A stretch of DNA of 64,000 nucleotides from Bacteroidales bacterium (GTDB lineage Bacteria; Bacteroidota; Bacteroidia; Bacteroidales; UBA932): the NCBI GenBank assembly GCA_017962375.1, contig JAGCVJ010000015.1:1-64000 (forward strand), written 5' to 3'. The position numbers were made by a program, and so were the translations under genes. The notes beneath the pieces were generated by a model, which was given only the letters and a program-made list of their open reading frames with translations, had not been told where the DNA came from and searched no databases. This document shows, in pieces, positions 16,014 to 57,450 of the stretch. The number at the start of each line of letters is the position of its first letter. Within the stretch, counting starts at the first letter, position 1.

Positions 16014-16811
16014 ATGAAAACATTCAAGACAATCTCAATTGCTTTGTGCCTTGCGCTTTGCTCAGCGATTATCTTCGGCTGCAAGAACGGGGCGCAGACA
16101 AAAGACCAGGCTCCTCAGGAAAAGGCTCCGGAGGCTCAAGTTGACCAGGCCCAGGTTCCTGAGCACTACAGCGTTCCTGCAGAGCTCCAGTACGCTCAGG
16201 AGGAAACCTATCAGGCCGGAGACCAGACCTATCCTCTTTACATCATAGACAAGTTCTACCCTATCGGGTGGAGCAAAGACGGAAAGCTGGCCTACATAGA
16301 AGAACCTGCAGACGAGGCCGTGGGAGCATATTTTTTCCAGTTCCACATCCTGGACCTGAACACCGGAAAAGATGTCTTCACCTGGAAGCCGGAAGAAGAT
16401 CCGGAAGAAGGCAGCATCAGCCAGATGTGCCAAGACAACAAGGAACTCTTTGAGTCAAAACTCAAGGAGAACGGCATTATTCCTCAGACCTTCAAGCTGG
16501 AAGGCGTGGAGGTTCCTTTCATCGCAGAGAATGCAAAGGTGTGGATGGACAAGACTCCAACCGAAAGCAATTTCCTGGGCTGCGACGTCATCAAAAATGT
16601 AAAGGTCAGCTGCGGAACTCCTAAAGAGAATAAGGTCATCTTTGAAGATGAAAACAACGAGGAGTACAACACCACCCTGAACCAGGACATTGCAGGAACC
16701 CTCAAATTCCCTTACGGCGATATGGCTGCCGTTATGGTGAAATCTACTCAGAGAGGCTATGAAGGCCCGCCTCATGTATATCATTTCTACTTTGTCAAGG
16801 CAAGCAAGTAA
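16014..16811 (+). CDS. Hypothetical lipoprotein, first gene of GH3 operon
   Basis: 265 residues with a lipoprotein signal (IIFGC) then an Ala/Gln/Glu/Pro-rich linker. The mature domain has the repeated look of a beta-propeller blade or sensor domain (YIIDKFYPIGWSKDGKLAYI), but no family is recognised. Its stop overlaps the ATG of the first GH3 gene (TAATG), so the two are translationally coupled and probably work together at the outer membrane or periplasm. It carries a CTCAGCGAT copy (16061) encoding Ser-Ala-Ile of the signal peptide. Confidence 0.75.
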   Translation: MKTFKTISIALCLALCSAIIFGCKNGAQTKDQAPQEKAPEAQVDQAQVPEHYSVPAELQYAQEETYQAGDQTYPLYIIDKFYPIGWSKDGKLAYIEEPADEAVGAYFFQFHILDLNTGKDVFTWKPEEDPEEGSISQMCQDNKELFESKLKENGIIPQTFKLEGVEVPFIAENAKVWMDKTPTESNFLGCDVIKNVKVSCGTPKENKVIFEDENNEEYNTTLNQDIAGTLKFPYGDMAAVMVKSTQRGYEGPPHVYHFYFVKASK

Positions 16812-18112
16812 TGTTTTTCAGACAGATAGGAACAGCTCTTCTGGCCGCACTGGTTTGTGTGGCCAGTTGTGCTGATTCCGGCAGCCAAGACGCCCCCGAG
16901 CCAAAGCCGGTTAACCAGGATTCCCTCAGGCACGCCGCCCAGGTGGATTCTCTGATGGCCCATCTTTCCGTCAGGCAGAAGGTTGCTCAGTTGTTTATAA
17001 TTGAAATCAGCAGGTTCCCCGACAGGGCCACTAAAGCCATCCAGGACACCCTGGTCAAGTCTTACGGCATCGGGAACCTGATAATAATGAAAGGCCCCGT
17101 AAGGCAGTTCATGCAGCGGGTGAACGAGCTTCAGGCCCTTGCCGAAATTCCTCTTCTGGTTGCCACGGACGGAGAATGGGGAGCTGCTATGCGCTTCCCG
17201 GAGTACTGCCCTTACCCGAGGCAGGCGCTGCTGGGCAGGATGGAGGATCGCCAAGACCTGATGTATGAAATGGGAAGGAACGTGGGCAGGGAGCTCAAAG
17301 ACCTCAACATCCTGATTAACCTTGCTCCGGTGGCTGACGTGTGCGCAGACCCTTACAACAGGGCAGAGAGCCAGAGGTCATTCGGAGGAGATCCCCGTCT
17401 GGTTGCAAAATATGCCGCGGCCTATATGAGGGGCATGCAGGACGAGGGCATATACGCCTGCGGAAAGCATTACCCCGGAATCGGAGACTCTCACGTGGAT
17501 TCCCATTATGCCCTGCCCGTAATCAGACACACCAGAGAGCATCTTGACACCGTTGACCTCTACCCTTACGGCAGACTCTTCCGGGAAGGAATGGAAATGG
17601 TTATGATAGGCCATTTCTGCATTCCGGGCATAGATTCAACCGGAGTGCCGATGTCCATATCCAAGATCTGCATAGACCAAGTCTTGAAAAAAGACCAGGG
17701 TTTCAAGGGAGTTGTAATCACCGATGCCCTTCCTATGAAAGGCATCGCCAGAGGAAAAACAGCCCTCAAGGCCAATATGGCCGTTTACCGCGGCGGGGCG
17801 GACATGATCCTTATGCCCGCGGACATCATCAAGACCATCAAAGCCATAGCCGATTCCGTTTCCACCGGAGCCTTCCTTATGGAAGAGCTTGACGCCAAGG
17901 TTAGGAAGGTTCTGGACCTGAAAGCCAGAGCCGGATACTTTGACGAGGGGTTCAGCGCCCAGGTTACAGACGTGGACCGGAAGATACAAGAAGCCCTGAC
18001 CAGAGACACCGCCCTTATCCGCAAGATGGAAAAGGCAATGGCAGAGTCTTCAAAGCCTAAAATCAAGGCCTGGGGCAGAGACCGCACCCTGCTTCTGGAC
18101 CAAAAGAAATAA
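16811..18112 (+). CDS. GH3 family beta-N-acetylhexosaminidase-like lipoprotein (copy 1)
   Basis: 433 residues, lipoprotein signal (CVASC). Single GH3 N-terminal domain as in NagZ, which removes GlcNAc from muropeptides. The NagZ-type motif reads KHYPGIGDSHVDSH, keeping the catalytic Asp-x-His dyad (DSH) although the usual GHG is GIG. The nucleophile is in VITDALPM. There is no GH3 C-terminal domain and no fused beta-lactamase domain. It is a tandem paralogue of the next gene, two bases downstream, with closely matching phrases (e.g. ATDGEWGAAMRF). Confidence 0.85.
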   Translation: MFFRQIGTALLAALVCVASCADSGSQDAPEPKPVNQDSLRHAAQVDSLMAHLSVRQKVAQLFIIEISRFPDRATKAIQDTLVKSYGIGNLIIMKGPVRQFMQRVNELQALAEIPLLVATDGEWGAAMRFPEYCPYPRQALLGRMEDRQDLMYEMGRNVGRELKDLNILINLAPVADVCADPYNRAESQRSFGGDPRLVAKYAAAYMRGMQDEGIYACGKHYPGIGDSHVDSHYALPVIRHTREHLDTVDLYPYGRLFREGMEMVMIGHFCIPGIDSTGVPMSISKICIDQVLKKDQGFKGVVITDALPMKGIARGKTALKANMAVYRGGADMILMPADIIKTIKAIADSVSTGAFLMEELDAKVRKVLDLKARAGYFDEGFSAQVTDVDRKIQEALTRDTALIRKMEKAMAESSKPKIKAWGRDRTLLLDQKK

Positions 18113-18114
18113 TT

Positions 18115-19392
18115 ATGAAAATCTTCTACTCAGCGATAGTGGCGGCCTTTGCCGTTCTGATTTCTGCATCCTCAGCCCTCTGCCAAGACAAAGATTCTCT
18201 AAGGCACAAGGCTCAAGTTGAAGAAATCCTCGGCAAAATGACCGTAAGGCAGAAAGTGGCGCAGCTTTTCATAGTTGAAATAAGCCGCAACCCTTCAGAC
18301 AAAACCAAGGCAAGGCAAGACTCTCTTGTAAGAGACTACGGCATAGGCAACATTATTCTCATGAAAGGCTCCATCTACGAGTTCATAGAAAGGGCCAACT
18401 ATCTCCAGTCGCTTGCCGCAGTTCCGCTTATGGTGGCAACAGACGCGGAATGGGGAGCCGCCATGAGATTCGACGAGTACCTTCCCTATCCCAGGCAGGC
18501 TCAGCTGGGAAGAATAGAAAAGGGGGCTGAAAAGCTTCTGTACAAAATGGGCCGGAATGTGGGCCGCGAACTCAAAGACCTGAACATTCTGGTCAATTAC
18601 GCTCCCGACGCCGATGTTTCGGACAATGATGTGGCATCTCTTTCCCAGAGATCCTTCGGTTCAGATCCAAAGCAGATTTCCGTTCTGGCCACCGCCTATA
18701 TGAAAGGAATGCAGGACGAGGGAATCTATGCCTGCGGCAAGCATTATCCGGGGCACAGCGGAACCAAAGTGGACGCCCACATCGATATGCCGGTATTGAA
18801 CAGAACCCGCGCATATATGGACACCGTGGACATGTACCCCTACTACAGCCTGTTTGCCAACGGGCTGGAAATGGTAATGGTAGGCCATTATTCCATTCAG
18901 TCCATAGACCCTTCCGGAGTGCCTATGTCCATGTCACCGGTCTTGATGAATGAAGTTCTCAGGCGCGACCAGGGTTTCAAAGGCGTGGTGATAACAGACG
19001 CCGTGGCCATGGGAGCTCTCACCAACAAAGACAGGGGTCCGGTTGAAGCCGCTATGGCTGTTTACAAAGCCGGAGCCGACATGATTCTGATGACAGCCCA
19101 ACCAAGAAAATGCATAGAAGCCATTACCGCCAAAGTCGAGAGCGGAGAATGGCCTCTGGATGAGCTGGAGTCCAAAGTCAGGAAAGTGCTCACCCTCAAA
19201 GCCCGGGCCGGGTTCTTTGAAAACGGATTCAATCCTGAGGTAAAGAATCTGGACCGCAAGATTGCTTCCGCCAGAAAAAGAGACTACCGCCTGATCAAAA
19301 GGATGCAGCGAAGAATGCTCAAGTCCACCAAGCCGTATATCGCCCCAACCGGCGATGACAGAACGCTTATTCTCGACAAGGCGGGCAAATAA
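18115..19392 (+). CDS. GH3 family beta-N-acetylhexosaminidase-like protein (copy 2)
   Basis: 425 residues with a cleavable signal peptide (ASSALCQD). Same fold as copy 1: KHYPGHSGTKVDAH with the Asp-x-His dyad (DAH), nucleophile region VITDAVAMGAL, and ATDAEWGAAMRF. The pair clearly arose by tandem duplication. Copy 1 is a lipoprotein, while the Cys before the QD here sits in a poorer lipobox, so the two may sit in different envelope locations. A terminator follows directly after the stop. Confidence 0.85.
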   Translation: MKIFYSAIVAAFAVLISASSALCQDKDSLRHKAQVEEILGKMTVRQKVAQLFIVEISRNPSDKTKARQDSLVRDYGIGNIILMKGSIYEFIERANYLQSLAAVPLMVATDAEWGAAMRFDEYLPYPRQAQLGRIEKGAEKLLYKMGRNVGRELKDLNILVNYAPDADVSDNDVASLSQRSFGSDPKQISVLATAYMKGMQDEGIYACGKHYPGHSGTKVDAHIDMPVLNRTRAYMDTVDMYPYYSLFANGLEMVMVGHYSIQSIDPSGVPMSMSPVLMNEVLRRDQGFKGVVITDAVAMGALTNKDRGPVEAAMAVYKAGADMILMTAQPRKCIEAITAKVESGEWPLDELESKVRKVLTLKARAGFFENGFNPEVKNLDRKIASARKRDYRLIKRMQRRMLKSTKPYIAPTGDDRTLILDKAGK

Positions 19393-19420
19393 AAAGAGAG
19401 GGCCAGACGGTCCTCTCTTT
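19393..19420 (+). terminator. Terminator of the GH3 operon
   Basis: 12-bp stem AAAGAGAGGGCC / GGTCCTCTCTTT (one wobble), loop AGAC, followed by T-rich sequence. The A-run on its left side lets it work for the convergent lipoprotein gene as well. Confidence 0.75.
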
Positions 19421-28068: not shown

Positions 28069-29532
28069 ATGAAAAATATTGTTTCTGCAATAATTTTGGT
28101 TCTGGCGGCGTCTTTTATGGCTGCCTGCACCCATCGCGGAGAAGAAAAAACAGGCTCAGAAGCCCATATAACGCAGCTGATCTCGGAAGCCTCAGCTGAA
28201 GTGGAAAGCCAAAGGTTTGACTCAGCGATGGTAAAAGCGATTCAGGCACTGGATCTGGCGGAAAAGAAAGGGCTACCTCTCCAGAAAGTGAAGGCTCTGG
28301 AGTGCATCGTAGGCATCGACATTATGACCAGCCGCGACTCCGCTGCTTGGGAAAAAGCCCTTCAGGCTGAGGAAATAGCCCGCAAAGAAGGCTTCAAAGA
28401 TGATCTTTCCGGCATTTTGATTTCAAAGGCAAAACTGTGCTCATACGCTGAAATCTCTCCTGAGACTAGCAGAAACGATGAGGGCCTGGAATATGCCCAG
28501 GAAGCTCTCACCCTTGCAGAAGAGGCTCAAAGCATGGAAAAACAGGCAGAGGCCTGCTATGTCATAGGATCGCTTTACATCAACAAGAACCGTTGGAACG
28601 ACCAGATAGATACGGCCATCTACAATACGGCTGGGCGATATCTGGCCAAAGGACAGGCTATAGCAGATACCTATGATATACCTAGGCTGAAACGCAACGG
28701 CATAATGTTCCGTTCCCGCTGGTTCCAGCAGGGAGACCGCAACGCTGAGGCCGTACAGTACTTCTCCCAGGTGCTCACAACCCTGAAAGACTCCGACCAT
28801 CTGACCGCCTCCAGCCTCTACGACCGCCTGGTAAGGCTCTATACACGCTTGGGAGAAAATGAAAAGGCCCTGGAGTGCCACGATATGTACGTAAGGCACC
28901 AGCAGCAGTACATGGCGCAGAAAAACGACGAGATTCTCCAGGAGATGGAGACAAAATTTGAGGTGGAGAAGAAAGAGAAGGCCCTGGTAATTGGCCGTTA
29001 CCGTACTGCTCTGCTCATTCTGGCTGTAATTCTCGCTCTGGCGGCTCTAGCGGCCGCATTCCGCAAGATTAGGGCTGTCCGCCATCGCAACGCAGAGCTA
29101 GCAAAGAGCAACAGCATAAAAGAACAGATTATCTCCTTCCTGTCTAATTCACTCAGAGATCCGGAAAGCAAATACACTTCCGCCTTTGAAGCCCTCGCCG
29201 CCGAAGCTCCGGCTCTGACAGAAGAGCAGATCAGGGAAAGGTGCCGCCAAATAACAAAGGAAAGCCATTCGCTCAGCGATGATGTTGGCAAATATCTTTC
29301 AGACCTTCTGGCTGAAAAGCGGAATAAAATCGCCGAGATGGGACTGTCTCAAAGAGAAATTGAAATCATACAGCTCTCCGCCCAGGGGCTCAAGGCTTCT
29401 GAAATTGCAGAAAAGCTATTCCTTAGCGTACATACGGTGAACACCCATCGCCAGAGGATCTACTCTAAAATGGAAGTGCGGAACATATCTGATATGCTCC
29501 GCAAATCCAAACTCCTGGGTATTATCCAGTAG
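28069..29532 (+). CDS. Membrane-anchored TPR protein with LuxR-type DNA-binding domain
   Basis: 487 residues. N-terminal lipoprotein-like signal (SFMAACTH), then TPR-like helical repeats to about residue 310, a hydrophobic segment at about 312-330 (LLILAVILALAALAAAF), a coiled-coil region, and a C-terminal LuxR HTH (GLSQREIEIIQLSAQGLKA in pieces, EIAEKLFLSVHTVNTHR). The topology would place TPRs outside the inner membrane and the HTH in the cytoplasm, so it could transmit an envelope signal straight to DNA. It is divergent from the LRR lipoprotein locus, a possible target. It carries two CTCAGCGAT copies. Confidence 0.82.
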   Translation: MKNIVSAIILVLAASFMAACTHRGEEKTGSEAHITQLISEASAEVESQRFDSAMVKAIQALDLAEKKGLPLQKVKALECIVGIDIMTSRDSAAWEKALQAEEIARKEGFKDDLSGILISKAKLCSYAEISPETSRNDEGLEYAQEALTLAEEAQSMEKQAEACYVIGSLYINKNRWNDQIDTAIYNTAGRYLAKGQAIADTYDIPRLKRNGIMFRSRWFQQGDRNAEAVQYFSQVLTTLKDSDHLTASSLYDRLVRLYTRLGENEKALECHDMYVRHQQQYMAQKNDEILQEMETKFEVEKKEKALVIGRYRTALLILAVILALAALAAAFRKIRAVRHRNAELAKSNSIKEQIISFLSNSLRDPESKYTSAFEALAAEAPALTEEQIRERCRQITKESHSLSDDVGKYLSDLLAEKRNKIAEMGLSQREIEIIQLSAQGLKASEIAEKLFLSVHTVNTHRQRIYSKMEVRNISDMLRKSKLLGIIQ

Positions 29533-29564
29533 GAGTCAGTAATCTCTTCAATAATCGCTGAGGA

Positions 29565-31731: not shown

Positions 31732-31751
31732 ATCTTCCTCAGCGATTAAAG

Positions 31752-40454: not shown

Positions 40455-40874
40455 ATGAAAAAGATCTTTGCAATACTCGCCTCAGCGATAATTCTGCTGG
40501 CCCTGCCTTCAAAAGCAGACGCGCAGACAATCCGCGACCGCTACGGCTCGCAGATAGGCACCATCCAGAGCGACGGCACCATCCGTGACAGGTACGGCTC
40601 TCAGGTAGGAAAGATAGACCGCGACAACGTGGTGCGCGACCGCTACGGCTCGCAGATCGGGAAGATAGATTCTGACGGCACCATCCGCGACAGATACGGT
40701 TCTCAGGTGGGCAAGGTTTGCTCAGACGGAGTGGTCCGCGACCGCTACGGCTCACAAATAGGAAAAGTGGACAACGACGGCACCGTCCGCGACAAGTACG
40801 GCTCCCAGATAGGCTCAGCCCGCGGAGTTCCGACAACTTGGGCCGGCCTCTACTTCTTCTTCAACCTAAATTAA
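40455..40874 (+). CDS. Exported protein made of six 17-residue RYGSQ repeats
   Basis: 139 residues: signal peptide of 24 residues (ending ADAQ), then six tandem 17-residue repeats (residues 25-126) of the form [TV][IV]RDRYGSQ[IV]GKxxxDG, and an aromatic tail (GLYFFFNLN). The first five copies alternate QIG and QVG, pointing to a duplicated two-repeat unit. The short, regular strand-turn pattern suggests a beta-solenoid or sheet stack. Function unknown. The repeats are DNA-level too (51-bp period, 40527-40832) but with many silent differences, so they are old. Confidence 0.75.
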   Translation: MKKIFAILASAIILLALPSKADAQTIRDRYGSQIGTIQSDGTIRDRYGSQVGKIDRDNVVRDRYGSQIGKIDSDGTIRDRYGSQVGKVCSDGVVRDRYGSQIGKVDNDGTVRDKYGSQIGSARGVPTTWAGLYFFFNLN

Positions 40875-42149: not shown

Positions 42150-43925
42150 ATGCTAAAAGTCCTGCCCGAAAGTATATACAGCCTGATTGCCGCCGGAGAA
42201 GTCATCCAGCGGCCATCTTCCGTGGTTAAGGAGCTGATGGAGAACTCCGCAGACGCCGGAGCAACTTCCATTATGCTGGTGGTCAGCGATTATGGAAAAA
42301 CTCTGATTCAAGTCATAGACAACGGCTGCGGAATGGACAAGGAAGAAGCCTCTCTTTGCTTCCTTTCTCACGCCACATCCAAGATAGACAGCGTGGAAGA
42401 CCTTCAGAACCTGTCCACATTCGGATTCAGGGGAGAGGCCCTGGCCTCCATAGCCGCCTGCGCGGACGTAACAATGAAGACCAGAAAGAAGGGGCTGGAA
42501 ACCGGCACCCAGGTGCATATCGCCGGAGGAAAAGTTCTGGAAACCCAGGAAATCGCCTGCCCTGAAGGCTGCAACATTGCAGTGCGCAACCTCTTCTACA
42601 ACATACCGGCAAGGAGGAAGTTCCTCAAGTCGGACAACAGCGAGTACAGGATGATTGTGTCCGAGTTCACCCGCGTGGCTCTTACCCGTCTGGACATTGA
42701 ATTCCGGCTCATATCAAATTCCAAGGAGGTTATCACCCTGCCGAAAGGAAGAAACCTCAAGCAGAGAATCTCAGACTTGTACGGCTCAGCGATAGGCAAG
42801 CAATTGATTGACGTGGCAGCCGATACAACAGTAGTGAAAGTCTCCGGAATAGCAGGAACGCCTCAGAGCGCCAAGAAAACCCAGCAGAACACCTTCCTGT
42901 TTGCAAACGGCAGGTTTTTCCGTTCGCCGATGCTGCACAAGGCCGTGCTCAAGGCCTACGGCAACCTGATTCCGGAAGGAAGCACCCCGCACTATTTCCT
43001 GTTCCTGGAAGTTCCGCCACAGGAGATGGATGTGAACATAAGCCCGTCAAAGACAGAGATAAAGCTGGAAAACGAGCAGATAATCTTCCAGATAATAGAA
43101 GCCGCCGTAAAAGAAGCCATAGGGAAGAATGCCTTTGCTCCGGCGATAGATTTTGACACTGAGGGCGTGCCTATCGAGATTAGCACGGGAGACGGGTTCA
43201 CCCTCACTCCGGAAGAGAAAAAGGCTATGCGAGAAGGAGTGCTGAGGCCGCCTAAGATAGACTACAACCCTCTCTTTAACCCGTTCGATGAGGAAAAGAC
43301 AGAGAAAGGTTCCAGCTACAGCGTTCCAAGTTCAATCAACAGGCAGCTGGAGGAAGAACCAGAGCAGAGGCGCATAATCCAGATAGACAAAAACCTTGTG
43401 ACCCTTTCAGACGGAAAAGGGGGGCTGATGATTGTAAACATAGCCAGAGCCAGGCAGAGAATCTTCTACGAGCGCTACCTAAAATCTATGCTCAACCACG
43501 AGTGCCAGATTCAGGAAGAGCTTTTCCCTAAGACTGTCACTCTGGACCACTCCTCATACGCCACTCTGATGGACAACGTGGAGAAAGTGCGTCTCATGGG
43601 CTTTGAAATCCGCCCGTTCGGCAAAGACTGCATAGTGGTCAGCGGTACTCCTGCAGACTTCAAGGGAGAGAAATTCTCCGTAGAAGACAGCATGGAAGAA
43701 CTCGCAAGATACATAGAAGAGGGAAGCGAAACGGACCTTTTCCGCAGAGCTGCTGAAGATATAGTCAGGCGTTCCAACTTCTCATATACGGCAGAAATCT
43801 CCGAAAGGGAGGCCGGCGCGGTAATAGACGAGCTGTTCCTCTGCCAGGAGAGTGCAACATCCCCGGCCGGCGGCTACACGTTCATACGGCTTTCAGCCGA
43901 GGAAATAAAACAGAAAATGCTATGA
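42150..43925 (+). CDS. mutL: DNA mismatch repair protein MutL (endonuclease motif degraded)
   Basis: 591 residues. The GHKL ATPase half is intact: KELMENSADAGA with catalytic Glu, DNGCGM, HATSKI and TFGFRGEALASIA, and RNLFYNIPARRKFL. The C-terminal domain is present but its endonuclease motif DQHAxxExxxxE reads N-I-A-R-A-R-Q-R-I-F-Y-E (430-441), keeping only the last Glu, and no CPHGRP motif is visible at the end. This protein may thus rely on another nuclease. Its stop overlaps the rhomboid ATG (ATGA). Confidence 0.95.
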   Translation: MLKVLPESIYSLIAAGEVIQRPSSVVKELMENSADAGATSIMLVVSDYGKTLIQVIDNGCGMDKEEASLCFLSHATSKIDSVEDLQNLSTFGFRGEALASIAACADVTMKTRKKGLETGTQVHIAGGKVLETQEIACPEGCNIAVRNLFYNIPARRKFLKSDNSEYRMIVSEFTRVALTRLDIEFRLISNSKEVITLPKGRNLKQRISDLYGSAIGKQLIDVAADTTVVKVSGIAGTPQSAKKTQQNTFLFANGRFFRSPMLHKAVLKAYGNLIPEGSTPHYFLFLEVPPQEMDVNISPSKTEIKLENEQIIFQIIEAAVKEAIGKNAFAPAIDFDTEGVPIEISTGDGFTLTPEEKKAMREGVLRPPKIDYNPLFNPFDEEKTEKGSSYSVPSSINRQLEEEPEQRRIIQIDKNLVTLSDGKGGLMIVNIARARQRIFYERYLKSMLNHECQIQEELFPKTVTLDHSSYATLMDNVEKVRLMGFEIRPFGKDCIVVSGTPADFKGEKFSVEDSMEELARYIEEGSETDLFRRAAEDIVRRSNFSYTAEISEREAGAVIDELFLCQESATSPAGGYTFIRLSAEEIKQKML

Positions 43926-44530: not shown

Positions 44531-45639
44531 GGGGCAGAAAACGCAGGAGAGTTCCGAGGTTTTTCGGGATAACATTCAGGCTGGTGCTCATAGTGGCCGC
44601 GGCCTGCCTGTTTTTGTCTTACATCTCCTCTTACATAGATCCTTCCAAGTTTTCTCTTCCGCTTTTCTTCGGCCTGTATTTCATCCCGATTCTTTTTGTC
44701 AACATTCTGCTGTTTCTGATAGCGGTTCTGTCGCGGAGCAAAAGCGCCTGGATAACAGTTGTTGCCCTTCTTCCCGCACTGCTGTTCACCGAAAGGTTCT
44801 TCCGTTTTGGAAGTTCCAAGAAAAGCGGCGCTGAGTCAAACGCCATAAAGATTGAAACCTACAATGTGGGGCGATTCATCCTCTCGGCAAACAAGCAGAC
44901 AAAAGCCGCTACAATGGACAGTATTGTCCGTCAGATACAGAATTCTTCTCCCGACATAGTCTGCCTGCAGGAAATGAGGCTGGACAGCATAGGCCTTGCA
45001 GACAAAGTGTTCCCCGGCTACAGATACCGGACGTTCCATCTTTTCGGGAGCAGCAAGGGAAAACGCACCGGCAACATGATTTTCAGCAAATACGAGATAA
45101 TCAACGGCGGGGTGCTAAAGTTCAAGCAAAGCACCAACCTGTCTTTGTACGCGGATATCGTGATAAACAAAGATACGGTGAGAGTGTACAACAACCACCT
45201 GGAGTCCTACGCCATTTCCCCTACCGCCCTGATCAAGAGAATCAGGGAAAAGAAATCCAATTCCGAGGAGGTTGCGGAAGAAATCATAAATGTCCACACC
45301 AAGCTCAAGAACACGGTTATACGCCGTTCGGGGCAGGTTTCCTCAATTCTGAAGAACATACATAAGAGCCCTTACCCGGCAATCATTTGCGGAGACTTCA
45401 ACGACACCCCGATGTCTTTCACCTACCACAAGCTTTCCTACGGCAGCCTGGACACTTTCAAGGAAAGCGGCAGGGGATTCTCCGCCACCTACTCCATGCT
45501 GTGGCCGCTTCTGAGGATAGACTACATTTTCATTCCGAAAACCTTCAAGGGCATCAGCCACCAGACATTAAAGGTCAAGCATTCAGACCATTATCCGGTA
45601 ATCGCCGAGTTTTCTCCGGAAAAAAACGAGAAGAAATAA
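44518..45639 (+). CDS. Membrane-anchored endonuclease/exonuclease/phosphatase family protein
   Basis: 373 residues. Basic start (RGRKRRRVPR), two or three N-terminal membrane helices to about residue 90, then an EEP domain: ETYNVGRF, CLQEMR, YNNHLES, CGDFNDTP and the C-terminal KHSDHYPV, with the catalytic Asp/His set complete. EEP members cut DNA or phosphodiesters; with the anchor facing out, a nuclease or lipid/sugar phosphatase on the periplasmic side is possible. Confidence 0.88.
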   Translation: MGRVRGRKRRRVPRFFGITFRLVLIVAAACLFLSYISSYIDPSKFSLPLFFGLYFIPILFVNILLFLIAVLSRSKSAWITVVALLPALLFTERFFRFGSSKKSGAESNAIKIETYNVGRFILSANKQTKAATMDSIVRQIQNSSPDIVCLQEMRLDSIGLADKVFPGYRYRTFHLFGSSKGKRTGNMIFSKYEIINGGVLKFKQSTNLSLYADIVINKDTVRVYNNHLESYAISPTALIKRIREKKSNSEEVAEEIINVHTKLKNTVIRRSGQVSSILKNIHKSPYPAIICGDFNDTPMSFTYHKLSYGSLDTFKESGRGFSATYSMLWPLLRIDYIFIPKTFKGISHQTLKVKHSDHYPVIAEFSPEKNEKK

Positions 45640-47095: not shown

Positions 47096-47830
47096 TTATA
47101 TTGATGCAAAATATATTTCGGAAACCCCTGCAACCGCTGCCGTTTCAACCCTGAGGCGAGACGGTCCGAGAGTCACAGGCAAGAACCCCTTTTTCAGAGC
47201 CAATTCTATTTCTTTCTGCGAAAAATCTCCCTCAGGCCCTATCATCAGCACAACCCTAAGATTATCGGAGGCGAAATCGCCGAGCCTTTCACGGATAGTT
47301 TTCTTTTCTCCCTCCTCGCAGTGAGCCATGAGCTTGAGAACTCCTTCCCCGAAATCGCGGTTGAGAAAGTCTGTAACGGAAACAGCGTCTTCCACAACCG
47401 GCAGACAGGATTTAAGGCTCTGCTTTGTGGCCGCCAAAACCAGCGCCTCAAGCCTTTCTTTCTTCACCGATGTTCTTATGGAATGGTCTGATATTATTGG
47501 AACTATGCTGTCTACACCAAGCTCCGTAGCCTTCTCTGCAAACCACTCGTAGCGGTCCATATTCTTGGTTGGGCAAACCGCCATCACAAGATGATAATTC
47601 CTGACGCCAACGCCCTGAGATTTCTCCACCACAGAGCATTCCACAACAGCCTCTCCCCTTTTAGGCAGAACAATGCGGGCAATGGTGCAGTTGTAGAGTC
47701 CGCCCTTTCCGTCCATGACAAAAACGGTATCGCCCTCCCTGTGGCGCATCACCCTAACGCAATGGTCAGCCTCCGCTCCCGAGAGAGTTATGACGGATTT
47801 CTTAATGTCGGTTGAATAGAACAGTTCCAT
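47096..47830 (-). CDS. rsmE: 16S rRNA (uracil1498-N3)-methyltransferase
   Basis: 244 residues. SPOUT-class methyltransferase with HCVRVMRHREGD in the N-terminal PUA-like domain, the knot motif MIGPEGDFSQKE and LGPSRLRVETAA. I use the ATG at 47828-47830; the upstream GTG at 47834-47836 would lie inside the promoter box TAAATTTG (47836-47843), which ends 5 nt before the ATG, so the mRNA is likely leaderless. Confidence 0.94.
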   Translation of the reverse strand: MELFYSTDIKKSVITLSGAEADHCVRVMRHREGDTVFVMDGKGGLYNCTIARIVLPKRGEAVVECSVVEKSQGVGVRNYHLVMAVCPTKNMDRYEWFAEKATELGVDSIVPIISDHSIRTSVKKERLEALVLAATKQSLKSCLPVVEDAVSVTDFLNRDFGEGVLKLMAHCEEGEKKTIRERLGDFASDNLRVVLMIGPEGDFSQKEIELALKKGFLPVTLGPSRLRVETAAVAGVSEIYFASI

Positions 47831-49191: not shown

Positions 49192-49431
49192 ATGAAAAAG
49201 ATGATAATGATAAATGGCAAGATGGCGGACGCCATCAGATGGGACGGGGTAAACATCGCTGAGATAAGAGAGCTTGCCGGGGAAAAACTCATGGAACCTC
49301 ATCTTTGCATGGGGTTCCTCTATCTTTTCATCGCTACAGAAGACGGCATCTCCCAGTGCAACGAAGGCGACTGGGTTGCCAAGGACCAGGACGGAGGCTG
49401 CCACGTGCTCAAGGCAGAAGAAATGCAGTAA
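49192..49431 (+). CDS. Hypothetical protein, short beta-rich
   Basis: 79 residues: INGKMADAIRWDGVNIAEIREL, then GFLYLFIATEDGISQCNEGDWVAKD (both in pieces). The pattern (VxAxxWDGxN...I.T..G......GDWV) recalls small phage/prophage-derived proteins of unknown function. It lies 10 bp after the NagX-like gene and 5 bp before tsaE. Carries a CTCAGCGAT copy (49255, minus). Confidence 0.65.
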   Translation: MKKMIMINGKMADAIRWDGVNIAEIRELAGEKLMEPHLCMGFLYLFIATEDGISQCNEGDWVAKDQDGGCHVLKAEEMQ

Positions 49432-49895: not shown

Positions 49896-50026
49896 TCCTC
49901 CCCCCTTTCGAACATAAACACACTGCACTCTGCACAAACGTAAAAACTTTGGGGGCGGACAGCGTCAATTTACGTTTTGGCAACCGCCCTTGGCTTTATC
50001 ACGATATATTCGCCCGAAAAAAGAAT

Positions 50027-51619
50027 ATGTTGTGCAAAGTTTATTGTGCGTGCTGCAACGGGTTGGAGGTTACTACTGTAACTGTAGAGGTAAATGTGAC
50101 GGACGGCATTCAGTTTCATCTGGTTGGGTTGCCTGACAGTGCCGTAAAGGAAAGCCAGCAGAGGATTGAAAGCGCCCTGTTCAGCAACGGGTTCCGGTTT
50201 CCTGGCAAGAGGATTACAATCAATCTGGCTCCGGCCAATATCAAAAAGGAAGGGTCGTCGTTTGATGTGCCGCTGGCAATAGGCATCCTGTGCGCTTCGG
50301 GACAGCTGGACGAGAATGTGGGCTTGCGGCTTAAGGACTTCATTATTCTCGGCGAACTGGCTCTGGACGGAACACTTCGGGAAATACCGGGAGCGCTGCC
50401 GATTATCATCCACGCTATGGAACAAGGCTTCAAGGCCTGCATTCTACCCTCTTCCTCGGCGATGGAGGGAGCGGAGATTGACGGCATAACAATCTTTGCG
50501 GCAGAGAGCTTCAGAGATGTGATTGAGATCCTTAAGTCTCCGGAGGAAGCATCTGATCTAATTGTCACTCCTCAAAGCATCGGCCAAGTGGAAGAAGACG
50601 ATGGAGGCGAAGAGAGGCAGAACTACGATTTCTCTCAGGTCAAAGGACAGTTCCAGGCCAAAAGAGCAATGGAAATAGCTGCGGCCGGAGGGCATAACAT
50701 AATCCTGAGCGGCTCGCCTGGCAGCGGCAAGACATTCCTGGCAAAATGCCTAAGAGGCATACTTCCTCCAATGTCCAAGGAAGAGGCAATCCAGACCAGC
50801 AACATCTATTCGGTAGCGGGACTGCTGGCGGCAGAGTCAGGCAAGGAGCATCATCGCGGAGGACTGCTCAGAAACCGCCCCTTCAGAAGCCCTCATCATA
50901 CGATTACGGTTCCCGCCCTCATTGGAGGCGGAAGCAAAGGCCTTCCTGGCGAGATTTCCCTGGCTCACAACGGGGTGCTTTTCTGCGATGAATTCGCCGA
51001 GTATGACAGGCGTTCCATTGAAGTTCTGCGCCAGCCGCTGGAAGACGGGGTGGTGCAGATAAGCCGAGTTATGGGCAGACATTTCTACCCCGCCCGCTTT
51101 ATGCTGGTGGCAGCAATGAACCCTTGCCCTTGCGGCCATCTGTATGACGGTAGCGGAAAATGCAAATGCTCTTCCTCAGCGATATTAAAATACCGCAGCA
51201 AGATTTCAGGACCGGTGATGGATCGTATAGATATCCACGTCCTGGTCAGGCCAGTCAAGGCAAACGAGTTGATTTTTCCCTCCCAGAGCCAGGAAGAAAC
51301 AAGTTCAGTTATCGCTGAGAGAGTAAAGAAAGCCAGAGACATCCAAATGGAAAGATACCGTAAAAACGGAGAATCCTTCTTTACCAATGCCGCCATAACG
51401 CCCTCAAGAATAGCGGTATACTGCAGACTAAAATATCAGGACAGACTGACGCTTGAAGCCCATGTCAGAAAGCAGGGCCTCAGCGCCAGGGGTTATACAC
51501 GCATCCTGAAAATCGCAAGAACCATCGCCGACCTCGAGCAGTCAGAAACAATCTCCGAAAAACATATTGCAGAGGCCGCCAGTCTCCGCTGCCCCGAAAA
51601 AAACGAAATGATACAATAG
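50027..51619 (+). CDS. comM: YifB/ComM family AAA ATPase
   Basis: 530 residues from ATG 50027 (LCKVYCACCNGLEV). N-terminal ChlI-like domain (DGIQFHLVGLPDSAVKES), Walker A GSPGSGKT, Walker B LFCDEF, then the MgchlC domain with AMNPCPCGH and the zinc-like CPCG...CKC cluster. ComM is a hexameric branch-migration helicase that helps integrate DNA during natural transformation. Two CTCAGCGAT copies (51175; 51311 minus) fall inside it. Upstream 49896-50026 has a GGGCGG/CCGCCC inverted repeat but no clear promoter. Confidence 0.92.
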   Translation: MLCKVYCACCNGLEVTTVTVEVNVTDGIQFHLVGLPDSAVKESQQRIESALFSNGFRFPGKRITINLAPANIKKEGSSFDVPLAIGILCASGQLDENVGLRLKDFIILGELALDGTLREIPGALPIIIHAMEQGFKACILPSSSAMEGAEIDGITIFAAESFRDVIEILKSPEEASDLIVTPQSIGQVEEDDGGEERQNYDFSQVKGQFQAKRAMEIAAAGGHNIILSGSPGSGKTFLAKCLRGILPPMSKEEAIQTSNIYSVAGLLAAESGKEHHRGGLLRNRPFRSPHHTITVPALIGGGSKGLPGEISLAHNGVLFCDEFAEYDRRSIEVLRQPLEDGVVQISRVMGRHFYPARFMLVAAMNPCPCGHLYDGSGKCKCSSSAILKYRSKISGPVMDRIDIHVLVRPVKANELIFPSQSQEETSSVIAERVKKARDIQMERYRKNGESFFTNAAITPSRIAVYCRLKYQDRLTLEAHVRKQGLSARGYTRILKIARTIADLEQSETISEKHIAEAASLRCPEKNEMIQ

Positions 51620-51650: not shown

Positions 51651-53351
51651 ATGGTTTTCAAGATTGCGGACAACATAATCTCCCCTTTGGGAAGGACCTC
51701 AGAGCAGAATTACCAGGCTGTAAAGTCTGGGAAGAGCGCTCTGGCTCCTCACTCTTTGCCAGGGCTGAAGGAAAGCGTGTATGCTTCATTGTTCAGTCCT
51801 GAGGACAGGGATAGCCTGAAAGTTGAAGGGATGAGCCGGTTCGAGTCACTGGTTTACAGATCCGCTTCCCGGGCTCTTGAGGGGGTGTCCGGACTATTCG
51901 ACGTTTCGGGGAAAGACGTGGTATTTGTTCTTGGAACCACCAAAGGCAGCATTGAGCTTCTAGACTGCAACGCTGAGGAAGAGGCCCTTCTGCCGGGCAA
52001 GAGCGCTCAAAGGATTTGCTCCCGTCTTGGAATCACCACCACCCCTATCGTGGTGTGCAATGCCTGCATTTCTGGCTTGAGTTCCATTATTCTGGCTTCC
52101 AGACTGCTGGAATCAGGAGCTTTTAAATATGCGGTAGTTTGCGGAGCGGATGTTCTGGGGCGGTTCATCGCCTCCGGCTTCCAGGCGCTGAAGACTCTTT
52201 CAGACGAGGCCTGCAGACCGTTTGACATAGAAAGGTTCGGAATGAATCTGGGAGAAGCGGCCGCAACTGTTGTGCTTTCTGCGGCGGAAGTGGAAGGAAA
52301 GAGCTGGGCCATTGAGGCAGGGGCGGTCAGAAACGACGCCCACAATCCTACAGCCCCCTCTCCAAAAGGAGATGGAGCATACCTTGCAATTTCTCAAGTT
52401 CTGGAGGGCTTTCCTGCTCAGCGATTGGCACTGGTCAATGCACACGGAACCTCTTCTCTGTTTATGGACCAGATGGAAAGCGTGGCCCTGGAAAGAGCCG
52501 GGCTGCTGGACGTTCCGGTCAACAGCCTGAAAGGCTATTTCGGACACACGCTTGGAGCTGCCGGAATTCTGGAGACAATCATCACGATGAAGGCTATGGA
52601 AGAGAACCTTGTTCTGGGAACAAAAGGTTTCCAGGAACTTGGAGTAAGCTCTCCGATTAGTGTAAGTCCAAAGCAAGTTTCCGCTTGTGGAAAGAACAGC
52701 TTTGTTAAGACAGTGTCCGGATTCGGCGGCGCAAATGCCGCTATTCTGGCAACTTGCGATCCGGATTATTCGGATACGGCAATTATTTTACCCGTTTTGA
52801 GAAAAACCAGACGGGTAAAAATTTCTCCTTCTGAAGTTTTGATAGACGGGCGTGCCGTTTCTCTTCCTGAAGGTCTTTCAGGAAAAGAGATTCTAACTTT
52901 CCTGTACAAAGAAAAGGTCGGGAATTATCCGCAGTTCTACAAGATGGATCTTCTGAGCCGTTTGGGATTTGTTGCTTCAGAACTTCTGCTGGGAGATGAC
53001 AGATGTGCCGGAACTGATTCCCGTGCAGTGATTTTCTTTAACAGCTCGTCATCACTTATGACAGACCGCAGGTATCTGGAAACCATCGCTGAGGACAATT
53101 ATTTCCCGAGCCCGTCTCTGTTTGTCTATACTCTTCCGAACATCATAACCGGAGAGATTGCCATTCGCAACAAATACAACGGAGAAACGTCTTTCTTTAT
53201 ACTGCCGGAAAGAGATGAAAAGGCAATGGAGAAAGTGCTGAGTACCGCGTTCCTGGACAAGAAGACAAGCAGCGCCATTGCAGGATGGCTGGACTGCCGT
53301 GGGGAAAATGACTTTGAGGCAGATATTTACATCGTTGAAAAAGAAGATTGA
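51651..53351 (+). CDS. Ketosynthase-like protein with C-terminal second domain
   Basis: 566 residues. Residues 1 to about 375 are a beta-ketoacyl-ACP synthase with catalytic Cys in CNACISG, His in NAHGTSS and His in GYFGHTLGAAG. The C-terminal 190 residues (SPSLFVYTLPNIITGEIAIR in pieces) resemble the second, KS-like domain seen in Bacteroidota polyene/flexirubin-type ketosynthase genes. It is followed at once by an ACP and an AMP-dependent ligase, so it probably builds a fatty-acid- or polyketide-like product. Confidence 0.85.
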   Translation: MVFKIADNIISPLGRTSEQNYQAVKSGKSALAPHSLPGLKESVYASLFSPEDRDSLKVEGMSRFESLVYRSASRALEGVSGLFDVSGKDVVFVLGTTKGSIELLDCNAEEEALLPGKSAQRICSRLGITTTPIVVCNACISGLSSIILASRLLESGAFKYAVVCGADVLGRFIASGFQALKTLSDEACRPFDIERFGMNLGEAAATVVLSAAEVEGKSWAIEAGAVRNDAHNPTAPSPKGDGAYLAISQVLEGFPAQRLALVNAHGTSSLFMDQMESVALERAGLLDVPVNSLKGYFGHTLGAAGILETIITMKAMEENLVLGTKGFQELGVSSPISVSPKQVSACGKNSFVKTVSGFGGANAAILATCDPDYSDTAIILPVLRKTRRVKISPSEVLIDGRAVSLPEGLSGKEILTFLYKEKVGNYPQFYKMDLLSRLGFVASELLLGDDRCAGTDSRAVIFFNSSSSLMTDRRYLETIAEDNYFPSPSLFVYTLPNIITGEIAIRNKYNGETSFFILPERDEKAMEKVLSTAFLDKKTSSAIAGWLDCRGENDFEADIYIVEKED

Positions 53352-54887: not shown

Positions 54888-56917
54888 AAATCAAAATTAT
54901 GTTATCAGCACTTTGCTTTGCGGCGTTAACCGCCGGATGCACAGGCGGGAAGACACTTACCTCCGGCCTGGACAAGGCAAACATGAATGATTCAATCGCT
55001 CCTGGCGAGGACTTTTACGAGTACTGCGCAGGCGGCTGGATGAAGGCCAACCCGCTCAAGCCGGAGTATTCAAGCTTCGGACAGTTCAATGTTCTTTCAG
55101 ACAACAACGAGCTTCAGCTCAAGGAAATGTTTGAAGAGTACGCGAACAACCCTCAGGAGAAGGGTACCCTTGGCCAGAAGATCGGCAGCTTATACCGTAT
55201 GGCTCTGGACTCTGTAAAGAGGAACGAAGACGGCTACAAGCCAATCATGAAGGACCTGGAGTATGTACGCAACATCGCAACCCGCGAGGATTTCCAGATA
55301 GCCAATGCCGTTCTGGGAAAGAGAGGCGTCGACATTTCAATGTTCTCCATTTACTGCGACGCAGACCTTTCCGATTCTGAGAACAACCTCGTCCAGACAT
55401 ATCAGGGCGGACTGGGACTCGGCAACAAAGACTACTATCTGAACGATAACGAGGCTTCCAAGAAGATTATGGAAGCATACAAGACCCTAATCTGCAAACT
55501 GTTCACAATGGTTGGCTACTCTGAGGCCGAGGCAAAGGCCAAAATGGAGAACATCCTCTCCTTAGAGTACAGGATAGCAAGGGCTTCCAAGAGCAGGACA
55601 GAGCTCCGCGATGTTCCTAACAACTTCCACAAGATGAGCTACGCAGACCTCAAGAAGGATTACCCGGGCATTATGTGGGACGAGATTCTCAGCGGACTGG
55701 GATATCCTGCAATTGACTCTGTATCCGTAGGACAGCCAGACCATCTCAAGGAAATCGAGAGAATCGGAAAGGAAGCTCCTCTTCAGGCTCTCAAGGACTA
55801 TGCAGAATTTGGAGTAATCTACGGCGCAACCAGTATGCTCAGCGATGATTTCCGCAAGGTTTCATTCGAATTCAGCCAGGTTATGAGCGGAGCCCAGGAA
55901 GACAGGCCTAGATGGAAGAGGGCTGTCGGAGCTGTAAACGGTGTTCTCGGAATGCCTGTCGGAAAGCTCTATGTGGAAAAGTACTTCCCTGAGAGCAGCA
56001 AACAGAGAATGCTTACCCTTGTAAACAACCTCAAGGACGCTCTGCACCAGAGAATAGAGCAGCTCGAGTGGATGAGCGACTCTACCAAGCAGCAGGCATA
56101 CGACAAGCTTGCAAACTTCATCGTGAAGATAGGATATCCAGACACCTGGAGAGACTACTCCAAGCTTCAGATAGACGACACTCTCTCATATTATGAGAAT
56201 ATGTGCAACGCTTCCGAGTTCTACCTTGCAGACATGATTGACCGCAAGGTTGGAAAGCCTGTCGACAAGACCGAGTGGCTTATGACTCCTCAGACCATCA
56301 ACGCATACTACAACCCTACAACCAACGAGATCTGCTTCCCTGCAGGAATTCTCCAGCCGCCATTCTTCAACCCGGCAGCTGACGACGCCGCTAACTATGG
56401 AGCAATCGGAGTTGTAATCGGCCACGAGATGAGCCACGGCTTCGACGACCAGGGCAGCCTGTTCGACAAGGACGGCAACATGCACAACTGGTGGACAGCA
56501 GAAGACAAGGCCAAGTTCGACGAGAGGACTTCTGTTCTTGCTGACTTCTTCTCCACTCAGGAAGTTCTTCCGGGAGTATTCATCAACGGAAGACTCACCC
56601 TCGGCGAGAACATCGGTGACAACGGCGGTCTGCACATCGCTTACCAGGCATTCCAGAACGCAATGAAGCAGAACCCTCTCGGAGAGAAGGACGGCTTTAC
56701 CCCAGACCAGAGATTCTTCATCTCCTACGGCTTTATCTGGGCTGCTAACTTCAGAGACGAGTACATACGCAACCAGGTTCTGAACGACCCTCACTCCAAT
56801 GCAAGGTTCAGAGTGAACGCAGCTCTTCCTCAGATCGACGAGTGGTACGAGGCCTTCGGAATCAAGGAAGGAGACAAGCTCTACCTCGCTCCTGAAAAGA
56901 GAGCCCACATCTGGTAA
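54884..56917 (+). CDS. pepO: M13 family metallopeptidase (PepO/neprilysin type), lipoprotein
   Basis: 677 residues with a lipoprotein signal (LTAGCTGG). Zinc motif HEMSH (VIGHEMSHGFDDQG), GENIGDNGG with the third zinc ligand Glu, and NAxY-like AYYNPTTNE upstream. Peptidase of the envelope that cleaves short peptides. Overlaps the ligase by four bases, an odd operon partner for ACP-linked synthesis. Confidence 0.95.
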   Translation: MKIKIMLSALCFAALTAGCTGGKTLTSGLDKANMNDSIAPGEDFYEYCAGGWMKANPLKPEYSSFGQFNVLSDNNELQLKEMFEEYANNPQEKGTLGQKIGSLYRMALDSVKRNEDGYKPIMKDLEYVRNIATREDFQIANAVLGKRGVDISMFSIYCDADLSDSENNLVQTYQGGLGLGNKDYYLNDNEASKKIMEAYKTLICKLFTMVGYSEAEAKAKMENILSLEYRIARASKSRTELRDVPNNFHKMSYADLKKDYPGIMWDEILSGLGYPAIDSVSVGQPDHLKEIERIGKEAPLQALKDYAEFGVIYGATSMLSDDFRKVSFEFSQVMSGAQEDRPRWKRAVGAVNGVLGMPVGKLYVEKYFPESSKQRMLTLVNNLKDALHQRIEQLEWMSDSTKQQAYDKLANFIVKIGYPDTWRDYSKLQIDDTLSYYENMCNASEFYLADMIDRKVGKPVDKTEWLMTPQTINAYYNPTTNEICFPAGILQPPFFNPAADDAANYGAIGVVIGHEMSHGFDDQGSLFDKDGNMHNWWTAEDKAKFDERTSVLADFFSTQEVLPGVFINGRLTLGENIGDNGGLHIAYQAFQNAMKQNPLGEKDGFTPDQRFFISYGFIWAANFRDEYIRNQVLNDPHSNARFRVNAALPQIDEWYEAFGIKEGDKLYLAPEKRAHIW

Positions 56918-56934
56918 AAAAACAAAGCTCAGCG

Positions 56935-57450
56935 ATGAAAAAAGTCGGACTCATATCAGATACTCACGGCTACTTTGGAGCTGAGCTTAAAGACTTTCTC
57001 AAAGACGTGGATGTTGTCCTTCACTGTGGTGACTGGGGCAGCATCCACACTCTTGAGGAGGTCAAAAATTTCAAGCCCGTCATAGGCGTATACGGCAACT
57101 GCGACGACCAGGACATACGCCTGGAAGTTCCCCTCTACCAGCATTTCATGCTCGAGGACCTGGACTGCCTGATGATCCATATCGGAGGCTACCCTGCCCG
57201 CTACGACTATAGGGCATATCAGCTCATCCATCAGGTCCATCCGGACATCTTCTTCTGCGGCCACTCCCACATCCTCAGGGTGATGAACGACCCGCATAAT
57301 TTCTCCAAAGAAGATTCTGACCGGAAAATGCTCGTGATGAATCCGGGTGCCTGCGGACAGATGGGTTTCCACAACGTAAGAACGGCCCTCCGCTTCAAGG
57401 TGGAAGGCCGTGATATCACAGATCTGGAACTTGGCCAATGGCCCCGCTGA
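56935..57450 (+). CDS. YfcE/MJ0936-type metallophosphoesterase
   Basis: 171 residues. Motifs SDTHG, HCGDWG, YGNCDD, GHSH(IL) and NPGA: complete two-metal phosphoesterase site. Usually acts on phosphodiesters in vitro; true substrate unknown. The CTCAGCGAT copy at 56928-56936 overlaps the start codon (ATG at 56935). Confidence 0.9.
   Translation: MKKVGLISDTHGYFGAELKDFLKDVDVVLHCGDWGSIHTLEEVKNFKPVIGVYGNCDDQDIRLEVPLYQHFMLEDLDCLMIHIGGYPARYDYRAYQLIHQVHPDIFFCGHSHILRVMNDPHNFSKEDSDRKMLVMNPGACGQMGFHNVRTALRFKVEGRDITDLELGQWPR

Follow-up and report, generated by a model that had tools for sequence, protein, structure and literature searches.

The uptake sequences (USS) of the Pasteurellaceae come in different variants in different groups of species. 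They are described as having a 9-base core and a high copy number (PMC1626085), and PMC12616744 predicts that they are read by a minor pilin of type IV. In all, uptake tags are firmly established in two proteobacterial families (PMC1939737). For the DNA uptake sequences (DUS) of the Neisseriaceae, PMC3630211 describes eight dialects with a common core, one of which carries an inserted base, 943 to 5918 copies per genome, and two dialects in one genome; the peripheral bases of the DUS are reported to be less strict (PMC3868556). Within the Bacteroidota, Riemerella columbina is described as preferring its own DNA (PMC7965970). Here we describe a 9-base sequence, CTCNGCGAT, that to judge from its distribution is probably the local dialect of a genomic tag of the DNA-uptake-sequence kind, with a putative role in uptake.

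Copies in the window and the source genome

The sequence-only reading of the window (the whole stretch of 64 kb that was analyzed) had claimed 19 exact copies of CTCAGCGAT, 13 on the plus and 6 on the minus strand, against around 0.5 expected. Each of these copies is present, and the excess is real: 100 dinucleotide shuffles gave a mean of 0.79 and a maximum of 5, and Markov models predict 0.4-1.0 copies at orders 0-4 and 2.2 at order 5. Orders 6 and 7 predict 8.4 and 15.6 copies, as models of that order already contain CTCAGCGAT. The whole 2.17-Mb genome holds 326 copies, 154 forward and 172 reverse, and the 13:6 ratio of the window is thus local. The reversed pattern occurs once genome-wide, but since it contains TAG it is a weak control, and Markov and codon-shuffle controls were therefore preferred. 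Position 4 proved to be free (A19 G10 C7 T3 in 39 window copies), so that the true motif is CTCNGCGAT, of which the window holds 39 copies and the source genome (G000) 706.

In the motif scan, copies of CTCAGCGAT were located at 16061..16069 (+), 18129..18137 (+), 28221..28229 (+), 29272..29280 (+), 36713..36721 (+), 37364..37372 (-), 37797..37805 (+), 39815..39823 (-), 40481..40489 (+), 49255..49263 (-), 52417..52425 (+), 53085..53093 (-) and 55838..55846 (+), and, by gene identification, within mutL at 42785..42793 (+). Three further copies had been placed outside genes, which fits the ORF map: one lies between convergent ORFs that end at 29532 (+) and 29565 (-) (29554..29562, -), one is intergenic and 3' of the eno stop at 31731 (31738..31746, +), and one overlaps the ATG start codon at 56935 (56928..56936, +). 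The last two are found in comM at 51175..51183 (+) and 51311..51319 (-). The variant CTCGGCGAT had rightly been called common, although it has ten copies and not nine: 9334..9342 (-), 9931..9939 (-), 11022..11030 (+), 15417..15425 (-), 29329..29337 (-), 32713..32721 (+), 35939..35947 (-), 45601..45609 (-), 50455..50463 (+, in comM) and 47276..47284 (-), which was absent from the earlier list. The remaining copies read CTCTGCGAT (7886..7894, 16521..16529 and 32668..32676, all -) or CTCCGCGAT (14680..14688, +; 28133..28141, -; 50853..50861, -, in comM; 55604..55612, +; 58964..58972, -; 59694..59702, -; 63358..63366, +). The first 16 kb, where indeed no CTCAGCGAT is listed, are not empty, as they hold six copies of CTCNGCGAT, starting at 7886.

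Strand, spacing and gaps

Relative to GC skew, CTCNGCGAT showed no significant bias (132 vs 143 and 109 vs 97, in 36 and 38 pieces), nor did a separate count for the G-rich strand (103 vs 129, p 0.10; Spearman p 0.64), and the replication polarity that was sought in the sampled pieces of G000 was in no case significant. Chi sites in well-studied species are strand-biased. Although the length and density of the tag lie within the Chi range, the absence of a significant orientation makes it very unlikely that the tag serves AddAB or RecBCD as a Chi-like hotspot of recombination, and the rapid change among congeners described below would be unusual for such a site. The copies occur on each of the five contigs sampled, and their spacing is near-exponential (CV 0.94), as could be expected for the binding sites of a chromosome-organizing or segregation protein. 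Most site systems of that kind are polar or limited to one domain, whereas no polarity was seen for the tag, and a shift of dialect between close species would require a protein that co-evolves; we consider this explanation quite unlikely.

The largest gap in the window, for CTCAGCGAT as well as CTCNGCGAT, runs from 18129 to 28133 and contains ribosomal genes and an LRR protein, which are not evidently foreign DNA. Within the sampled part of G000 the largest gap (12.1 kb, GC 0.373) contains parts of an ABC-3C system along with an integrase of the IS type. The second-largest coincides with the window's ribosomal operon, and a depletion of the tag in foreign DNA is therefore not established.

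Selection on the DNA

The ORFs sampled from G000 contain 141 copies of CTCNGCGAT, which is 6.5 times the mean after codon shuffling (21.6, sd 4.3, maximum 31 in 60 shuffles), and in two relatives the counts were 59 vs 10.5 and 51 vs 5.9. The earlier claim that copies occur in all coding frames and between genes was confirmed, in that every one of the six frames is enriched and 23 of 164 sites lie outside called ORFs (17.7 expected). Most frequent among the frames is the antisense one that reads ATC GCN GAG (50 of 141, 13.9 expected), and the copies are divided unevenly over the coding and the template strand (87 vs 118, p 0.036). Other words that resemble codon pairs are enriched as well. These three observations would suit a motif that arises as a side effect of codon usage, codon pairs or amino-acid motifs like Ile-Ala-Glu, but such an origin is extremely improbable and already contradicted by the enrichment in six frames, the size of the total, the sites outside called ORFs, the congeners that lack the motif and the conservation of third codon positions.

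Between species, CTCNGCGAT is intact at 71 of 121 aligned sites, which are partly non-independent, vs 0.35 for neighbors in the same frame, and the free N is its least conserved position (84/121). Conservation at third codon positions within the motif, one of the proposed checks, amounts to 0.798 vs 0.675. Together with the codon shuffles, these data support the view of the sequence-only reading that selection acts on the DNA and not on the protein, the sites being kept beyond coding need.

Related tags within the genus

The hosts constitute a group of uncultured Bacteroidales of the ruminant gut that belong to one genus, and G000 was compared with 38 congeners. Ten species including the source (clade A) carry 592-1058 copies of CTCNGCGAT each, and thirteen others carry TCCCGACRG instead (141-949 copies). 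The latter is likewise in excess after codon shuffling in three genomes (30 vs 0.5, 26 vs 0.9 and 54 vs 4.0) and intact at 23 of 33 aligned sites vs a null of 0.14. The two motifs are complementary across the 39 genomes and have the core TC...CGA in common, which is unchanged where the tags differ by an inserted base and by their flanks. The groups fit the ComEC tree, which was used instead of one based on eno, since ten TCCCGACRG-rich genomes have a 59-69% identical version of the latter. An intermediate species, G012, has ATCGCGAT and ATCCCGAT as its own motifs, firm under codon control; it is the only genome of the middle group for which this holds, and in G047 the signal is weak (ATCGCGAT 5 vs 1.4 codon-shuffled), which was counted against an uptake tag. 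Related dialects with a common core that follow phylogeny are firm for two dialects, with the intermediate represented by one genome, G012. The anticipated excess in close relatives was found in part: it is absent in 19 of the 38 congeners, most of which carry a related motif. In G014, GCATCTGAAC (51 copies in 117 kb) resembled a further dialect at first but was set aside as an intergenic repeat, because 40 of the 51 copies lie outside called ORFs (8 expected).

The main rival explanation is a HIP-like drive, in which a methyltransferase and biased mismatch repair would make and keep the motif as a by-product and not as a signal, a mechanism that has been put forward for cyanobacterial HIP1. 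HIPs are reported to have alternates in different species and to show one-base deviations that cluster at the two outermost bases (PMC4390886), and deviations of CTCNGCGAT are enriched at position 1 (105 vs 35 expected) and position 9 (105 vs 31), which was counted against an uptake tag. Furthermore, ATCGCGAT, a second motif that is over-represented in clade A and G012 and occurs in the window at 2613..2620, 14302..14309, 34378..34385 and 61428..61435, is palindromic like HIPs. However, CTCNGCGAT and TCCCGACRG are non-palindromic, deviations at position 5 are enriched too (66 vs 31), and the motifs keep TC...CGA where they change through an inserted base and in their flanks, so that we regard a HIP-like drive as unlikely.

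Putative uptake machinery and candidate reader

ComEC and DprA, which belong to the competence core, were each found in 38 of 39 genomes. The window contains, as had been claimed, a gene for ComM (comM/yifB; Mg_chelatase, ChlI) at 49949..51619 (+), a transformation helper elsewhere, which is linked to the tag by association only; the ORF at 28024-29532 was rejected as comM and encodes a LuxR/TPR protein. Insertion mutants of R. anatipestifer in YifB are reported to transform less (PMC8459023). ComEC, DprA and ComM occur in many bacteria and are no proof of competence, and comM in the window is weak evidence for an uptake role.

The type IV pilus/T2SS ATPase (T2SSE, PF00437), the one pilus family that was searched, did not exceed the cut-off in any of the 39 genomes, although 31 of them gave weak matches below it; the control matched 14 of 14 named genomes, 13 of them over the cut-off. 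Known pilin readers (ComP, ComN) are therefore unlikely. The tag readers known so far are components of type IV pili, which was counted against an uptake tag. An OB-fold DUF5689 protein is present in 10 of the 10 CTCNGCGAT-richest (clade A) genomes, and its gene adjoins an outer-membrane-receptor-like gene in all those inspected (6 of 10); in all 10 genomes where this was read, the short-form DUF5689 gene lies after a receptor-like ORF. Of the 13 TCCCGACRG-rich genomes, three have DUF5689 and ten lack it, which was likewise counted against an uptake tag. The DUF5689 and CarboxypepD_reg outer-membrane protein families are described as essential for Riemerella transformation (PMC8459023). These data weakly support the OB-fold DUF5689 protein and the neighboring outer-membrane receptor as the reader in clade A.

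Proposed mechanism and implications

We infer a role for the tag in DNA uptake. A surface receptor would prefer DNA that carries the tag and the cell would import it, ComEC and DprA would carry it inward and RecA would recombine it; as a consequence tagged alleles would spread, and the tag would build up on both strands wherever coding permits. Related species would read related tags (TCCCGACRG; ATCGCGAT and ATCCCGAT), which may limit exchange between clades. Of the candidate uptake or recombination signal originally suggested, the uptake half gains from dialects patterned like those of uptake sequences, while the Chi half is disfavored by the lack of a significant strand bias. More tentatively, we propose a pilus-independent, sequence-specific uptake in Bacteroidota, in which a TonB-type outer-membrane receptor might, together with an OB-fold lipoprotein of the DUF5689 family at the surface and secreted nucleases encoded alongside, read tags with the TC...CGA core, and in which changes in the reader might shift the dialect and so isolate the gene pools of co-resident rumen species.

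This would provide the uptake machinery of the Bacteroidota with a proposed reader. If true, an independent uptake tag in another phylum implies that such tags evolve repeatedly, transformation is predicted among uncultured rumen bacteria, and adding the tag to DNA could be a practical key to the genetic tractability of rumen species. With its two strong tag groups, its intermediate and a genome that has two motifs, the set of 39 related species offers a natural series to follow the co-change of tag and reader.

Comparison with known systems

Like the DUS of the Neisseriaceae, the tag is short and non-palindromic, has hundreds to thousands of copies and occurs in dialects that follow phylogeny and have an inner core; a base insertion between dialects and two motifs in one genome are further parallels. 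It differs in phylum and sequence, and in that no T2SSE-type pilus ATPase exceeds the cut-off in the 39 genomes. Its density, around 1 per 2-3 kb, is below that of most Neisseriaceae, which was counted against an uptake tag. With the USS of the Pasteurellaceae it has the nine bases and the high copy number in common, though the sequence is unrelated. The genome-wide excess, the alternates in some species and the deviations at the outer bases recall cyanobacterial HIP1 as described in PMC4390886; HIPs, however, are palindromes with a link to methyltransferases, and the main motifs described here are non-palindromic. Finally, the transformation machinery described for Riemerella, another member of the Bacteroidota, comprises ComEC and DprA together with an outer-membrane protein of the CarboxypepD_reg family and one of the DUF5689 family (PMC8459023), relatedness being judged by Pfam family names. 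A plain k-mer count in Riemerella gave A/T-rich words alone, and the tag is the new element here.

Excess of the motif in the window and in the genome

The sequence-only reading had proposed the 9-mer CTCAGCGAT as an over-represented candidate DNA uptake or recombination signal, and the excess held: the window contains 19 copies, where 0.79 are expected from the mean of 100 shuffles, 0.4-1.0 under Markov orders 0-4 and 2.2 under order 5. Position 4 is the sole free position among the one-base variants in the window (A 19, G 10, C 7, T 3), and therefore the motif is written as CTCNGCGAT (39 copies in the window). A second, palindromic motif, ATCGCGAT, occurs there four times. In a 442 kb sample of the source genome, G000, which comprised the window and 378 kb from contigs 1-4, 164 copies of CTCNGCGAT were found against 11.7 expected (order-3 Markov model), and ATCGCGAT was found at 49 places. 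In this sample a T was favoured two bases before CTCNGCGAT (82 of 164) and a G immediately 3' of it (75 of 164). The excess of CTCAGCGAT extends to the whole G000 assembly (2.17 Mb, 87% complete), with 326 copies of CTCAGCGAT and 380 of CTCBGCGAT, the reversed patterns occurring 1 and 19 times.

Two other words, CCCTAAG (66 versus 12 expected) and ATAGAC (431 versus 220), were over-represented in the window and G000 stretches L015-L033 and are unexplained by the motif family. On contig 2, an AT-rich, motif-free region (L021 11150-18305) encodes ABC-3C/SMEK and DUF2326 proteins, an AAA/metallophosphatase protein and an IS-type integrase; it is a probable mobile defence island.

Selection on the DNA

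The suggestion that selection acts on the DNA rather than on the protein was supported by codon shuffling and by conservation between species. ORFs of 120 aa or more were called mechanically, and synonymous codons were shuffled 60 times, keeping proteins and codon use. The sampled G000 ORFs held 141 copies of CTCNGCGAT versus 21.6 after shuffling (sd 4.3, largest of 60 shuffles 31), with all six reading frames exceeding expectation; the relatives G016 (59 versus 10.5) and G044 (51 versus 5.9) also had more copies than after shuffling. Beyond the called ORFs lay 23 of the 164 copies in the 442 kb sample, where 17.7 were expected.

In 15 species pairs with a DNA identity of 74-89%, CTCNGCGAT was intact at 71 of 121 sites, compared with 35% full identity at the matching positions of same-frame neighbour windows (p 1.6e-7, paired Wilcoxon). 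Position 4, the free one, was the least conserved (84 of 121; remaining positions 100-113), and third codon positions were conserved at 0.798 inside the motif (n=267) versus 0.675 in the flanks (n=2081). For TCCCGACRG, the other main dialect of the genus, 12 of 13 pairs aligned, and 23 of 33 sites were intact versus 0.14 for neighbours (p 2e-5), with third positions at 0.812 inside versus 0.569 in flanks. Sites in these comparisons are not fully independent, because some pairs are reciprocal or have a common partner. A smaller, window-only test with six relatives (35, 9, 12, 10, 10 and 6 sites) gave the same intact-fraction outcome in all six; the third-position excess was absent in two of them (L006 and L008).

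Dialects across the genus

Counts were made in all 39 genomes of the genus that were retrieved, G000 included. CTCNGCGAT occurs 592-1058 times in ten genomes, designated clade A (G000, G003, G010, G016, G020, G044, G045, G048, G050, G052), 359 times in G013, 78-170 times in nine genomes of a middle group (G012, G018, G023, G043, G046, G047, G051, G053, G054) and 6-59 times in the remaining nineteen. TCCCGACRG occurs 141-949 times in thirteen genomes (G009 949, G049 814, G008 649, G011 538, G001 507, G017 478, G015 458, G022 406, G024 376, G006 340, G005 292, G021 183, G002 141), 58-86 times in G014, G019, G004 and G041, 19-47 times in clade A, 8-23 times in the middle group and G013, and 13 and 6 times in G007 and G042. 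None of the 39 genomes was high in both. De novo counts recovered ATCGCGAT and ATCCCGAT in G012, with a weaker signal in G047, the other middle-group genomes being thinly sampled; under codon control ATCGCGAT stood at 17 versus 1.0 and 5 versus 1.4, respectively.

Codon-controlled core counts showed enrichment for TCAGCGA (2.4-fold) and TCGGCGA (1.8-fold) in clade A, for TCGCGA (5.1-fold) and TCCCGA (3.6-fold) in G012, and for TCCCGA (2.0-3.5-fold) in the TCCCGACRG groups; no core exceeded 1.6-fold in G007/G042, G014/G019/G041 or pooled G046/G047/G018/G054. The element common to the dialects is TC, one or two bases, and CGA.

TCGCGA was scarce in ORFs of several TCCCGACRG-rich groups (0 versus 20, 12 versus 57 and 18 versus 66 expected), for which restriction avoidance is one possibility. 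In one congener, G014, GCATCTGAAC is an abundant intergenic repeat, with 51 copies in 117 kb (L080-L086), 40 of them beyond called ORFs.

Neither main motif was significantly oriented relative to GC skew: CTCNGCGAT lay on the G-rich strand 132 times and on the other 143 times in clade A (36 pieces, p 0.55), and TCCCGACRG 109 and 97 times (38 pieces, p 0.44); a smaller first test gave 103 versus 129 (p 0.10). The 213 sites of CTCNGCGAT and ATCGCGAT in the G000 sample are spaced near-exponentially (CV 0.94). The template strand is slightly preferred (118 versus 87 coding, p 0.036), which fits a favourable Ile-Ala-Glu frame.

Phylogeny and range

In a tree built from 38 ComEC rows by a quick method and rooted at the midpoint, in which several branches are long, clade A forms one group with a support of 84, adjoined by the middle group. 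TCCCGACRG is present on either side of that root and may therefore be the ancestral dialect. Across 59 other genera of the order its count was at most 143 (G066, reversed control 41), above the lowest of the thirteen counts in the genus (141 in G002, control 32) and below the other twelve; in a few others it was several-fold over the reversed control at low counts (G072 58 versus 7, G095 36 versus 5). The highest count of CTCAGCGAT in 16 other families was 31, and some counts were above the reversed control (G027 22 versus 1, G031 31 versus 4, G037 29 versus 2). Within the genomes sampled, a strong excess therefore characterises this genus.

Eno (window 30424-31731; L122-L131) is at least 86% identical within clade A and the middle group and only 59-69% identical in ten TCCCGACRG-rich genomes, with no match in 8 of the 39; it looks as if enolase was replaced in one lineage. 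For one window protein, the 13 named relatives were all Bacteroidales or Bacteroidia MAGs, from ruminants where host tissue was given (yak, goat, water buffalo, water deer). A protein with TPR and a LuxR-type HTH (window 28024-29532) is 97-99% identical in four named relatives.

Candidate uptake machinery and reader

ComEC (PF03772) and DprA (PF02481) were each found in 38 of 39 genomes. With 357 aa in G000 (L025 15751-16824, contig 3) and 354-566 aa over the 38 genomes, the protein seems short for ComEC. The T2SS/T4P ATPase family was over the cut-off in none of the 39; 31 of them gave weak matches below it.

In Riemerella anatipestifer, also of the Bacteroidota, ComEC, DprA, ComF and RecA are described as required for transformation, as are further proteins that resemble no known component of transformation, including a DUF5689 protein and an outer-membrane protein with CarboxypepD_reg (PMC8459023); mutating either tonBA or tonBB is described as reducing transformation, in the case of tonBB probably via iron (PMC8383284). 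A DUF5689 protein with its neighbouring receptor is a tentative candidate for the tag reader. DUF5689 was present in 21 of 39 genomes, as a short form (~340 aa) in the whole of clade A and in G013, G018, G046, G047 and G053, and as a long form (open frame >700 aa) in G011, G014, G017, G019, G021 and G041. A large receptor-like ORF directly precedes the short gene in each of the ten genomes readable there (G000, G013, G018, G020, G044, G046, G050, G053, G010, G048; in G053 the ORF is interrupted by the contig end), which covers six of the ten clade-A genomes. An Endonuclease_NS match was found 4.7-4.9 kb away from DUF5689, with both on one contig, in nine of the ten clade-A genomes (in the exception, G045, the two are split over contigs), and also in G018, G046 and G047.

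Pfam domains were called at these loci for ten proteins, from G000, G011 and G041. In G000 these genes lie on contig 17, beyond the window, in the order of a BACON and Endonuclease_NS protein, an Exo_endo_phos_3 protein, a CarboxypepD_reg protein (981 aa) and DUF5689, the last with a weak OB-fold match under the cut-off. Lipoprotein signals, and a barrel structure for the G000 protein, are putative assignments made by eye or by analogy. In G011, BACON, DUF5689 and Endonuclease_NS are fused in one protein adjoining an OMP_b-brl_4 barrel protein. A DUF5689 match was absent in 10 of the 13 TCCCGACRG-rich genomes and Endonuclease_NS in 10 of the 39, including the motif-rich G049, G001, G009 and G002; these gaps count against the DUF5689 locus as candidate. 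G007 (95% complete) has few copies of either motif (45 and 13) and lacks both families, which carries little weight because motif-rich genomes lack both too.

Comparison with known systems

Among the matches listed in the open-licence PMC literature (titles and abstract starts), no uptake-tag dialect system was reported in Bacteroidota. Riemerella columbina is described as favouring its own DNA over that of R. anatipestifer or E. coli; a plain k-mer count in that study gave only A/T-rich words, and its authors left the question of a tag open (PMC7965970).

One-base deviations from CTCNGCGAT in the 442 kb of G000 were enriched at position 1 (105 versus 35 expected), position 9 (105 versus 31) and position 5 (66 versus 31), and at no other position. 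Since the deviations of HIPs likewise cluster at the outer bases and HIPs possess alternates, as described in PMC4390886, a HIP-like drive is the strongest rival explanation of the motifs, but the main motifs, CTCNGCGAT and TCCCGACRG, are non-palindromic, which argues against it. The tolerant end positions also resemble the DUS of Neisseriaceae, ComP being described as less dependent on peripheral DUS bases (PMC3868556), and the likeness extends to the dialect structure, the shared core, an inserted-base dialect and two coexisting dialects (as described in PMC3630211). Because the pilus feature was looked for and not found, the tag is not classed in the DUS-ComP system; by analogy, we lean towards a tag that works like DUS-ComP while standing outside it.
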